Part shown: positions 59,548-64,000 of the stretch, in pieces
How the letters are laid out: each line of letters starts with the position of its first letter
Position numbering within the stretch: position 1 is the stretch's first letter
Source: an uncultured Holophagaceae bacterium
GTDB lineage: Bacteria > Acidobacteriota > Holophagae > Holophagales > Holophagaceae
Direction of reading: 5' to 3'
Assembly: GCA_903840385.1 (NCBI GenBank)
Contig: CAIMFT010000158.1
Location: 1 to 64,000 of the forward strand
DNA: 64,000 nt
The notes under the pieces: generated by a model
Seen by the model: only the letters and a program-made list of their open reading frames with translations
Told to the model about the DNA's origin: nothing
Databases searched by the model: none
Program-made: the position numbers and the translations under genes

Positions 59548-59876
59548 GAGGCACCTCCTTCGGCGATAAGGCTGAACCTGATTCCCTTAGAATACAAGTC
59601 CATCAAGAAAGGAATTTCCAGCGGTAAAGAACTGCTCTAAGCCAATCATGCCCGAGTTTCCCCAAGTGGTTGCTGGTGCAACAGACCAGGCAGAAAAAGG
59701 CGGCAAGGCAACCATTCGGTTCACTGCGCTAAAGGTCTGGCCGTGGCCCTCCTGGGTGGAGAAGTGGCTCCCCTGGCGGCAGCGGCCTGGTTTAGGGACG
59801 GTCTCCGCCAGCCGATAGGTATCCATTGCCAGGGGGTGTCGTGGTCCGATCGGCTCGGTACGGTTGGCATGGAAGG

Positions 59877-61460
59877 ATGGCCCCCTTCAGCATCCTGATG
59901 TTGATCTGCCTGAGCTTGCTCCGGTGCGGGGGTGGTACGGCCGCTTCTGCTCCAGCGCCCCTACCCACGATTACCCAGTTCACAGCTTCCCCCAGCCTGA
60001 TCACTGCGGGGAGCTCCGCCACCCTTGGGTGGGCGGTCTCCGGCGCCACGACCCTCCGCATTGACCCCAGCGTGGGTGCGGTGAGCGGCACGACCTCTCT
60101 TGTCGTGCCCGGCATCACCACTGCCTACACGCTCACCGCAGCAGGTGCTGGCGGCACCGCAACGGCTCAAGTCACCGTGACCGTGGTCCCATCGACGCCC
60201 TCTCCCATGCTCCCCGCCTCAATCACCAGTGGCATCGATACCATTTATTCGTTCGCCAACGGTGCCAACGCGGGCAAGCCAGGTGGGATGGTCGCCGTAG
60301 CCCTCGATGGCAAGATCATCTATCAGAAAGCCTATGGCATGGCCCAAGTCGCCGAAGGGGTACCCAGCGATGCCGGGGCGCCCTACTATCTGGCCTCCAC
60401 GTCCAAGCAATTCACTGCCATGGCGGTCTTGCTGTGCCAGGAACGCGGCTGGCTCAAGACCACCGATGAGCTGCGAGCCCACTTCCCGGACCTTGATCCG
60501 GTGTTCGACGGCATCAAGCTCCAGAACCTCCTAAACATGAACAGTTCCATCTACGATGTCGGTACTGGGAACCAGACCGCAACCACAGCCCAGATGTACC
60601 AAACCCTCAAGGATGAGGGGGCCTATGGTGTCGTGGTCACCGAACGCCCAGCCGGCAGCGTTTACAAATACACCAACATGAATTACGCACTGTTGGCGTT
60701 GATCGTGGAAAAGGTCTCTGGACAGTCCTTTCGAAGGTTCGTCCAGACGGAGGTTTTCGACAAGCTTGGCATGTCGCATTCCGTTGTCCATGACGATCCG
60801 GCCTTGGCGGTGCCAGGGCAACCCCATGGCTACGATGAGAGTCTGAACCTCTGGTCCACGGCAGCCACCACCTCTCCAGCCTTTGGAATGACTGGGGTGA
60901 TCACCACGGTCAACGATCTGCTGCTTTGGGATGAGAATTTTTACGCCAACCAGCTGGGGAGCCAGAGTCAGGCTTTGATCACGCTCATGGAGAAGCCCTC
61001 CTTGGGAAACTACGCCTGCGGCCTCATCGTCGACACCGCAGGAGGCTACAGGAGGGTTCAACACACCGGTCGCTGGCTGGGCTTCTTGACCGGTCACTAT
61101 CGCTATCCGACCCTGAAAATGACCGTTTTCGTGCTGCTCAACCGTGATGATCAGCGGTTGCAGCTTCCCGGGCACAACATCGCAACGCTATTCATGAATA
61201 CGGTCTGTTTTGTCAGCAGTGTGCCTGCCGCGGCAAAGCTCGCCGTGCCCTATCACCATGCCTACTCAGCCACCGGGGCTCCCCGCCCGACCTATTCCCT
61301 CCTCAGCGGCACCCTACCCCCGGGACTGGTCCTTTCCGCTGCCGGCGTCCTCTCCGGCACGCCCACCACCGCTGGAACCTACAGCGGTGTGGTCCAAGCG
61401 CTGAGTGGCACCAAGTCGGCCACGCAAAATGTGAGCCTGGTGGTAGCCACCAACCCTTGA
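59877..61460 (+). CDS. Serine hydrolase (class C beta-lactamase family) lipoprotein with flanking Ig-like domains
   Basis: LLRCGGG lipobox-like; STSKQFTAMAVL (SxxK); YTNMNYALLALIVEKVSGQSF; C-terminal YSLLSGTLPPGLVLSAAGVLSGTPTTAGTYSGVVQA Ig-like. Confidence 0.87.
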   Translation: MAPFSILMLICLSLLRCGGGTAASAPAPLPTITQFTASPSLITAGSSATLGWAVSGATTLRIDPSVGAVSGTTSLVVPGITTAYTLTAAGAGGTATAQVTVTVVPSTPSPMLPASITSGIDTIYSFANGANAGKPGGMVAVALDGKIIYQKAYGMAQVAEGVPSDAGAPYYLASTSKQFTAMAVLLCQERGWLKTTDELRAHFPDLDPVFDGIKLQNLLNMNSSIYDVGTGNQTATTAQMYQTLKDEGAYGVVVTERPAGSVYKYTNMNYALLALIVEKVSGQSFRRFVQTEVFDKLGMSHSVVHDDPALAVPGQPHGYDESLNLWSTAATTSPAFGMTGVITTVNDLLLWDENFYANQLGSQSQALITLMEKPSLGNYACGLIVDTAGGYRRVQHTGRWLGFLTGHYRYPTLKMTVFVLLNRDDQRLQLPGHNIATLFMNTVCFVSSVPAAAKLAVPYHHAYSATGAPRPTYSLLSGTLPPGLVLSAAGVLSGTPTTAGTYSGVVQALSGTKSATQNVSLVVATNP

Positions 61461-61538
61461 CCAACCCGGACCCATAACGCCTGGGTCTCATCTACGCCTC
61501 ATCGAGCCATTCCTGACCTCGTTGGTTGGCAAAAAATA

Positions 61539-61562
61539 AACCCCCTGACGAATCAGGGGGTT
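61539..61562 (-). terminator. Terminator with UUCG loop on minus strand
   Basis: AACCCCCTGA-CGAA-TCAGGGGGTT; minus strand continues TATTTTTTG. Confidence 0.85.
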
Positions 61563-61584
61563 ACTGGTGGACCTGATCAGGATC
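61563..61584. repeat. Direct-repeat copy of tRNA-Ala 3' end (second copy 61729-61750)
   Basis: ACTGGTGGACCTGATCAGGATC present exactly at both positions. Confidence 0.9.
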
Positions 61585-61730
61585 AAGGGGCCCGCCTCCG
61601 ATCCCGCAGGGAGCGGGAGCAGGCTCCAGTGGAGCCTGCGATAGGTGGGATGACGACCTCTGCCTTCAGAATCGGCGAGGTCGTCCACGAAACGAGAACG
61701 GCGGCCCGAAGACCGCCGCACTGTCTGGAC

Positions 61731-61806
61731 TGGTGGACCTGATCAGGATCGAACTGACGACCTCTGCATTGCGAACGCAGCGCTCTCCCAGCTGAGCTAC
61801 AGGCCC
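61731..61806 (-). tRNA. tRNA-Ala (anticodon CGC), CCA encoded
   Basis: GGGCCTGTAGCTCAGCTGGGAGAGCGCTGCGTTCGCAATGCAGAGGTCGTCAGTTCGATCCTGATCAGGTCCACCA. Confidence 0.93.
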
Positions 61807-61890
61807 TGGGCCCTCCAGTCTAACGGACCCCGGATCAGCGTCAATCCGGAGGGTGTGACCGAGCACTGGCTGGGGCCCAAAGGCCGACAA

Positions 61891-61927
61891 AGACAGAGGC
61901 CCGGGAACAGGTCCCGGGCCTCTGTCT
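61891..61927. terminator. Terminator of TonB receptor
   Basis: AGACAGAGGCCCGGGA-ACAGG-TCCCGGGCCTCTGTCT. Confidence 0.75.
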
Positions 61928-61941
61928 GGGTGCTGCTTTGC

Positions 61942-64000
61942 CTAGAACACGAACCGCAGGCCGAACTGGGTGCGGCGCGGGGCGTAGAGGCTGGTGGGCT
62001 GGCCGAGCGAGCTGCTGTGCATGCTGGGCTGGAAGTTGTACCCGGTCTGCTTATTGGCCACGTTGTAGACATCGATCATGCCCTCCATGCGAGAGAGCTT
62101 GGTCTTGAAGATGGTCTGGATGTAGCTCAGGTCCATCTGGTAGTGGGAGGGCGTGACGCGGGAACCGGCGGGCTCAGAATAGCGGTTGGTGTCGATGGTG
62201 CTGGTGCTGCCCTGGGTGGTGCGGTCCGTCAGGTAGGCCTCATAGCTCGAGTACTGCCAGGGCTGGCCGGACTGGTAGATGAAGTAGGCGCCGATCTTGG
62301 CCTGCCAGGGCAGCTCGTAGGTGCCGAAGACCTTCAGCTTGTGGCGACGGTCGCCGGACAGGTTGCCGTACTTGTTGTTCCACATCTGCCGGCCGAAGTC
62401 GTCACCGATGTTGGAGGAGCCCACGAAGATGTTGGAGTCATTGCCGTTGGCGGCAGTGGAGTTGTCCTGGTCAAAGTTGCCGTAGTAGTGGCTCCAGGAG
62501 TAGGAGGCGTTGAGGTAGGTCTTGGCGCCCTTGTACTCGAGCTCGGCGGTCAGCTCGTAGTACTTGGTGAAGGAGCCATCCAGCTGGGCCACGATGAAGG
62601 TGCTCTTGGTGGCGGCGATGTTGGCCAGGGCTGTGTTGCCGTTGAGCTGGTTCAGCATCAGGTCCAGATTGGGGATGTAGTAGGTCTGGGGGCCGTAGGG
62701 GTTGTTGAACATGACCCGGGCACCGTTGTCGGTGTCTTCCCAGAAGTTGACACTCTTGCGGTAGCGGCCGTAGAAGCGGCCAGAGAGGCCCTTGCCAAAG
62801 TCCTTGGTGGTGCCGAGCAGGAACTCATCCGTGTGGCGGGGCTTCATGCCCGGGGTGAAGAGCTTGCCGGTGGAGGAGGCGTCCGTCTGGTGGTCCACCT
62901 GGGTGCCGGTGGCATTGAAGTACACGTTGACGGTGGCCGCCAGGTTGCGGTCCCAGGAGGCAGCGCGGGGCAGCGAAGACACGGAGGGCACGAAGCGGGC
63001 GTAGTTGCCGTAGACCGTGTCTTCCTTGGCATAGTTCCAGGTCACGCCCAGGCGGGGCTGGAGGGTATCGGCAAACTTGATCTCCTTCTCCAGGTACTTG
63101 TTGCCCCGGGCCAGGACATAGCCCGAGAGCTGGGTGCTGTCTTCCCGCAGGCCGGACCCATAGAGCTTGTCATCGCTGATGACCAGGCCGACGTTGAAGG
63201 TGAAGCTCTGCCACTTGATCTTGTCGTTGATCTCGTAGTTGGTGGCCACGTACTCGGAGTGGATCACGGGCACGCCCGAAATGCCCTGCTGGTTCACGGC
63301 CGCCACGTAGCTGTAGGGCAGGCGGGCGATGGGGGACAGCGGGGGGTAGACGGCGGTGGAGCCGCTGCCCGAGGGCGCTGCCAGGGAGATCAGGCCCCAG
63401 CCGTTGGAGATGCGGTAGAGGTCTTCCGCTTCCTTGGACCACTGGACGCCAGCGTGGATCGTGTGGGTGACGCTGCTGCCAAAGACGCCGTCGTAGGCCA
63501 GTTCGTGGCTGCGGCGGAAGAAGTTCTGGTTGTTGATGGAGTTGTAGCCGCCCACATAGCCGCCACCGGTGGGGAGGCCTGTGGTGGGGCTGATGTAGCC
63601 GTACTTCGTGGTCAGGGGAGCGATGAAGGCGTTGTAGGCCGCCTGGGCGGTGGAGGGCGCGCTGCCACCAAGGGCCGAAGGCACCAGGAACTGGCCCTGG
63701 GTGTTGAGGGCCGTCACGTCGAGGCTACCGGTGAAGGAGGCCGTCACAGGGGAGCGGTAGTCCGGGTGGTCCGCAGCCTTCAGGATGAAGCTGGTGGACT
63801 TGAAGTTGATGAAGCTGTTGTCCGTGACGTTCCAGCTGGCCTCGATGGTGCCGATCTTCATCTTGCTGTTGGCGCCCACGCCGGTGGTGTCGGCATAGGC
63901 GTTGGAGGCATAGCCGGAGTGCTGGACCGTCTCATCCGAGTCCCGGTAGCTGGCGTGGATCAGCAGGTTGGACACCGGCGCATAGGTCAGCTTGCCGAAG
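61942..64000 (-). CDS. TonB-dependent receptor (N-terminus beyond window)
   Basis: Frame open to window edge; beta-barrel features, C-terminal SLYAPRRTQFGLRFVF. Confidence 0.85.
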   Translation of the reverse strand, partial: FGKLTYAPVSNLLIHASYRDSDETVQHSGYASNAYADTTGVGANSKMKIGTIEASWNVTDNSFINFKSTSFILKAADHPDYRSPVTASFTGSLDVTALNTQGQFLVPSALGGSAPSTAQAAYNAFIAPLTTKYGYISPTTGLPTGGGYVGGYNSINNQNFFRRSHELAYDGVFGSSVTHTIHAGVQWSKEAEDLYRISNGWGLISLAAPSGSGSTAVYPPLSPIARLPYSYVAAVNQQGISGVPVIHSEYVATNYEINDKIKWQSFTFNVGLVISDDKLYGSGLREDSTQLSGYVLARGNKYLEKEIKFADTLQPRLGVTWNYAKEDTVYGNYARFVPSVSSLPRAASWDRNLAATVNVYFNATGTQVDHQTDASSTGKLFTPGMKPRHTDEFLLGTTKDFGKGLSGRFYGRYRKSVNFWEDTDNGARVMFNNPYGPQTYYIPNLDLMLNQLNGNTALANIAATKSTFIVAQLDGSFTKYYELTAELEYKGAKTYLNASYSWSHYYGNFDQDNSTAANGNDSNIFVGSSNIGDDFGRQMWNNKYGNLSGDRRHKLKVFGTYELPWQAKIGAYFIYQSGQPWQYSSYEAYLTDRTTQGSTSTIDTNRYSEPAGSRVTPSHYQMDLSYIQTIFKTKLSRMEGMIDVYNVANKQTGYNFQPSMHSSSLGQPTSLYAPRRTQFGLRFVF

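Follow-up and report, generated by a model that had tools for sequence, protein, structure and literature searches.

What kind of element fills the space between a tRNA-Ala gene and the strong terminator that follows it? In the window, by which we mean the whole 64,000-nucleotide stretch that was analysed, both features lie on the minus strand, and the initial annotation had proposed a structured RNA between them with four hairpins and a tRNA-like, CCA-bearing 3' segment. The tRNA gene (61731-61806; anticodon CGC, CCA encoded; found by ARAGORN and Rfam) has just 5' of it a promoter-like site, TTGACG-16-TAGACT, at 61817-61844, a consensus match of which one was found against 0.1 expected in shuffles. 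A 166-bp tRNA-linked repeat unit (61565-61730), hereafter the Ala unit, begins with the first base behind the tRNA's CCA and closes with the CCA of a copied 3' end. It contains, in order, a terminator-like hairpin 1 (T1, 61698-61719), which reads GCGGCGGTC-TTCG-GGCCGCCGT then TCTCGTTTC; hairpin 2 (61652-61685), in which GACGACCTC, the inverse of GAGGTCGTC in the tRNA, is paired with a degenerate direct copy, TTCTGAAGGCAGAGGTCGTCA; body B (61585-61650), a REP-like double hairpin made up of hairpins 3 (61639-61619) and 4 (61618-61602); and a perfect direct repeat of the 3' end of tRNA-Ala, from T-loop to CCA plus GT (61563-61584, repeat family D1). The strong intrinsic terminator (T2, 61539-61562, then TATTTTTT) follows. 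No terminator-like sites other than hairpin 1 and this terminator turned up on the stretch, which makes two against 0.3 expected. Folding of the 193-nt stretch gave -103.7 kcal/mol, compared with -76.1 +/- 4.8 for dinucleotide shuffles (z = -5.8, 0 of 200). All four hairpins, the CCA-ended segment and the strong terminator that the initial annotation had described lie where it placed them, the terminator at 61562-61539, and it was right that a structured, CCA-ended element is co-oriented with tRNA-Ala.

The surroundings of the locus were also noted. Between tRNA-Ala and the end of a minus-strand ORF (61942-63975) that looks like a TonB-dependent receptor lies a 29-nt inverted repeat (61878-61940), which is probably the terminator of that ORF. 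On the other side, a convergent ORF at 59826-61460 resembles a serine hydrolase/beta-lactamase-type protein. Several relatives have a different convergent gene in its place, so the DNA past the Ala unit varies between species.

We found two pieces of the upstream tRNA inside the unit. The first is the copied 3' end: 61563-61584 equals 61729-61750, an exact 22-bp direct repeat at a spacing of 166, of which the last 20 nt of the tRNA to CCA occupy 61584-61565 and the GT makes up the 22 bp, at 100% identity. The second is degenerate, with 86% identity over 21 nt (61651-61671 against 61755-61775); it is the 3' arm of hairpin 2, running from the anticodon loop to the T-stem, and the hairpin's 5' arm is reverse-complementary to part of this copy. 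The inverted tRNA copy in the Ala unit spans the variable loop/T-stem strand, not the T-loop and acceptor. No full tRNA fold was found inside the unit by ARAGORN or Rfam, which find tRNA-Ala alone. A ruined complete second tRNA was considered and rejected, the tRNA-derived pieces being 21 nt and 22 nt long with a REP-like repeat between them. The CCA-ended segment of the initial annotation is real as a piece of sequence, but it is an exact copy of the tRNA-Ala end with no independent tRNA-like fold. That it copies the upstream tRNA was a point missing from that annotation, as were the dispersed REP-like repeat that holds hairpins 3 and 4 and the units behind many other tRNA genes. An Rfam search of the window and 20 tRNA-downstream loci returned nothing but tRNAs above threshold, and RtT (RF00391) had no match in the window. 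Sub-threshold hits, anti-hemB among them (24 bits, cut-off 49.5), were judged to be terminator likeness.

Homologues were searched for in the window's genome and 59 relatives, with loci read in tRNA orientation. The genus is Geothrix (Holophagaceae, Acidobacteriota), and in about a quarter of Geothrix genomes the same tRNA is trailed by a homologous unit, with half-units or empty sites elsewhere. The full Ala unit was observed in G000, G031, G006, G004, G025, G018, G013, G008 and G032, and in the more distant SZAS-17 (L112). Geothrix fermentans DSM 14018 and G. terrae SG184 are strains that have the Ala unit. The first half alone (hairpins 1 and 2) was present in G035, G015, G036, G060 and G068, and in a third state a plain terminator stands directly after the CCA, with no unit. 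G018, which has the unit, and G026, which has none, share the common flank AAGGAAAAGCCCCCTGTCGCC, so one unit was precisely gained or lost. The window locus holds one unit, and about 1.5 units in tandem were found in G004, G013 and G032; the last units of tandem loci are truncated. On an rpoB tree of 31 genomes the full units need at least four changes and show no clustering beyond chance. Many close relatives are without the Ala unit, so it is dispensable. Among ten aligned Ala units, hairpin 1 was kept in all ten, and 98% of the cells in the predicted structure pair. The compensatory changes in homologues, whose absence would have counted against the initial annotation, were present: 6 of the 40 pairs changed on both sides, most of them in REP-like hairpin 3. 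Hairpin 2 and the last helix are nearly invariant in these units, and covariation says nothing either way there.

Exact repeats 166 bp apart at a tRNA gene might also be the attL and attR of a tiny or deleted element that a tyrosine integrase had placed in tRNA-Ala. Sequence comparison marks tRNA-Ala(CGC) as an integration hot spot in Geothrix, and tRNA islands are known to use T-loop/T-stem crossovers (PMC4383910). Displaced tRNA 3' halves of ~45-51 bp were seen roughly 6-30 kb from the tRNA at L040 (G020), L041 (G002), L039 (G029) and L042 (G007). However, the att repeats of the islands (45-51 bp) start at the anticodon loop, while the copy in the Ala unit starts at the T-loop, and a plain integrase scar was rejected on this difference. 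No integrase was found between the 22-bp repeats, and a gap of 166 bp is too small for an integrase or other gene. In G032, G036, G068 and L236, islands lie between the tRNA and the unit, which indicates that the unit belongs to the host site. Moreover, the layout recurs behind 25 of 75 tRNA genes and includes inverted copies, which are no product of integration. We regard an integrase scar as very unlikely.

That recurrence was observed in the 600 nt downstream of the 75 tRNA genes of G000 and G018, with a threshold score of at least 13 for a copy of the gene's own tRNA. Own-tRNA 3'-end copies lay behind 19 of the 44 genes in G018 and 6 of the 31 in G000, while swapped-tRNA controls gave 0.3% for direct and 1.7% for inverted copies. 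None of 46 tRNA genes had such copies in G074, from another genus of the family. In G039, which represents another family, 2 of 32 had long direct copies, in neither case with an inverted one; partial direct copies near tRNA-Thr and tRNA-Arg in this genome are at L322 (C1:1132500-1133650) and L330 (C1:727700-728650). The usual order is tRNA, terminator, inverted T-arm, structured body and direct T-loop-to-CCA copy, often repeated, and the copies in Geothrix units are up to 26 nt long. A dense array of ~25 tRNA genes, many of them low-scoring, at G018:C14:157281-163603 is like the tRNA arrays of phages or integrative elements.

Two large body families were recognised. Class I bodies (GGTAG...) sit behind Ser, Cys, Gly, Gln, Glu, Val and Met tRNAs (model R2), and class II bodies (GAGTGG...) sit behind Pro, Arg and Thr tRNAs (model R1). 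Among the 93 genomes of the taxonomic class, R1 matched 50 and R2 61, all of them Holophagaceae; across the phylum, R2 matched 13 of 149 genomes, 12 of these Holophagaceae. Units are nearly universal in Geothrix according to these searches, which scored a limited set of initial candidates and so give minimum numbers for each genome. A same-strand tRNA precedes 48 of the 60 best loci, mostly at 35-63 nt, and its T-arm is found as an inverted copy to their left and as a direct copy to their right. Among the other 12, a contig end or an N gap truncates the tRNA at L217, L218 and L253, L236 has a displaced tRNA-Thr half, and several begin at contig ends. The Ala unit of the window matched neither R1 nor R2 at E <= 0.01, and its body is classed as a third type.

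Pairing is conserved in both families: two-sided changes affect 15 of 22 pairs in one and 21 of 29 in the other, a level that 0 of 500 shuffles reached and that no slid alignment came near. The main rival explanation concerns the source of these paired changes. It holds that duplication and template switching pile up palindromic or REP-like DNA behind tRNA genes, with no RNA role, and that the paired changes stem from quasi-palindrome correction rather than selection on RNA. The 43 G-U and 29 A-C cells in the two larger alignments are close to even and give no clear preference to RNA over DNA structure. This agrees with the explanation, as do the truncated last units, the patchy presence on the rpoB tree and the nature of body B as a dispersed REP-like repeat. 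Against it, the elements are found on the tRNA strand, just behind its terminator and with their parts in fixed order, and PMC8144298 reports transcription and processing of their E. coli counterparts rrA/B/F. We consider a repeat acting at the DNA level possible, though on balance somewhat unlikely.

Matches to body B were found in 39 of 47 Geothrix genomes, for example at G000:C100:21166-21218. REP-like double hairpins also adjoin or lie in class II units behind tRNA-Pro and tRNA-Arg (L095, L096, L100, L187), so REP capture is not limited to the Ala unit. Such hairpins in body B could suggest a REP element moved by a RAYT (Y1) transposase, and the GGTAG before the palindrome in one body family recalls GTAG-tagged REPs (PMC3733652). 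The Y1_Tnp domain (PF01797), however, was found in 5 of the 47 Geothrix genomes and was absent from the other 42, including both G000 and G018, even though the units themselves are nearly universal. RAYT transposition was rejected because Y1 is absent from most genomes. A unit was also closer to units behind the same tRNA in other genomes than to those behind other tRNAs in its own (0.81 vs 0.70 for class I, 0.74 vs 0.70 for class II). There is thus no sign of recent bursts, and the higher same-tRNA likeness speaks for inheritance in place with rare spread. Movement by a RAYT is, in our assessment, the least probable of the explanations considered.

Repeats of this kind, tRNA-linked repeats (TLRs), have been known in E. 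coli since 1978 and are still without an agreed function. PMC8144298 describes them in E. coli and the Enterobacteriales, without known function, and gives 22 units at ten loci in E. coli (Rudd 1999, via PMC8144298). There, the 3' 18-19 bp of a TLR repeat the 3' end of the tRNA or rRNA that precedes it, one to several units stand in tandem, and an early claim of a role in starvation recovery was retracted. The paper also reports that transcription passes T1 into rrA, rrB and rrF, which stand behind 5S rRNA, and that their RNAs are processed and bind Hfq and CsrA; recognition of the copied 3' end by RNase E is the authors' proposal for rrB.

In every sequence feature of TLRs that we examined, the Ala unit is one of them. 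It stands directly behind a tRNA on the same strand, its end is identical to the last 20 nt of that tRNA (100%; 18-19 bp in the E. coli units), a copy of the kind that marks the class, and tandem units (~1.5 in G004, G013 and G032) occur along with several loci per genome. The position directly behind a tRNA or rRNA gene, the copied 3' end and the one to several tandem units are all shared with the E. coli TLRs as given in PMC8144298. The Geothrix units differ in belonging to another phylum, in having copies of up to 26 nt and several unrelated body families, and in standing behind ~40% of the tRNA genes in G018. Behind tyrV of E. coli K-12 (L284, NC_000913.3:1285900-1287600) we found three 178-bp rttR units. 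Each of them combines an inverted T-arm segment (GGGGAAGGAT...CTTCGA) with a body and a 19-nt copy, AATCCTTCCCCCACCACCA. The inverted T-arm left of each tyrT/tyrV unit goes without mention in the consulted part of PMC8144298. The rtT/RttR units (RF00391) and the Ala unit share an inverted T-arm on the left, a structured body and a direct 3'-end copy on the right, but their bodies are unrelated, and the Ala unit opens with a terminator hairpin and is REP-like in its body. The RF00391 covariance model matched none of 41 genomes, with a positive E. coli control, so the likeness to the E. coli units is one of layout, not sequence. RrA/RrB/RrF, as described in PMC8144298, are flanked by a leaky first and a strong second terminator, with an end set by the copied 3' end of a stable RNA, as is predicted for the Ala unit; they follow 5S rRNA and bind Hfq/CsrA, whereas the Ala unit follows a tRNA. 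GTAG-/CGTC-tagged REP palindromes (PMC3733652) are also dispersed palindromic repeats, partly clustered, but the Geothrix units are tied to tRNA genes and tRNA copies, and most of the genomes are without RAYT.

The position of the Ala unit, its copied end, the two terminator-like hairpins around its body and the conserved pairing in the wider family are established. We think it likely that the Ala unit is a TLR of Geothrix, transcribed by read-through from tRNA-Ala past a weak terminator as far as a strong one, and cut back at the copied 3' end to an RNA of ~166 nt. Read-through of T1 would yield transcripts carrying the unit, the copied T-loop/acceptor 3' segment would be cut by the tRNA 3'-maturation enzymes, and a stable ~166-nt RNA would be released, its level tracking tRNA transcription. 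A local duplication at the 3' end of the tRNA is the most likely origin of the copy, the body would have captured a REP-like repeat, and gain and loss may proceed through recombination between the 22-bp repeats. More doubtful is a joint reading of the Holophagaceae units as a propagating family behind tRNA genes, whose terminal stem (inverted plus direct T-arm) comes from the local tRNA, so that one body family would have many tRNA-specific ends. As part of this, the copied Ala end together with an upstream GGGCC could fold into an alanine minihelix that ends in CCA and has G-U as its third pair, perhaps recognised by tRNA enzymes.

Any cellular role of the Ala unit is probably modest and optional, because close relatives do without it. 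The literature that we found using the term TLR concerns E. coli or bacterial pathogens. Geothrix provides comparative material: its units stand behind as many as 40% of tRNA genes, their bodies covary, sites are found both filled and empty, and the ends match the respective tRNAs. Whether the units act as RNA or DNA, how they arise, and whether the copied 3' end serves to direct processing become questions open to comparison, and units behind many different tRNA genes make the old TLR riddle testable.
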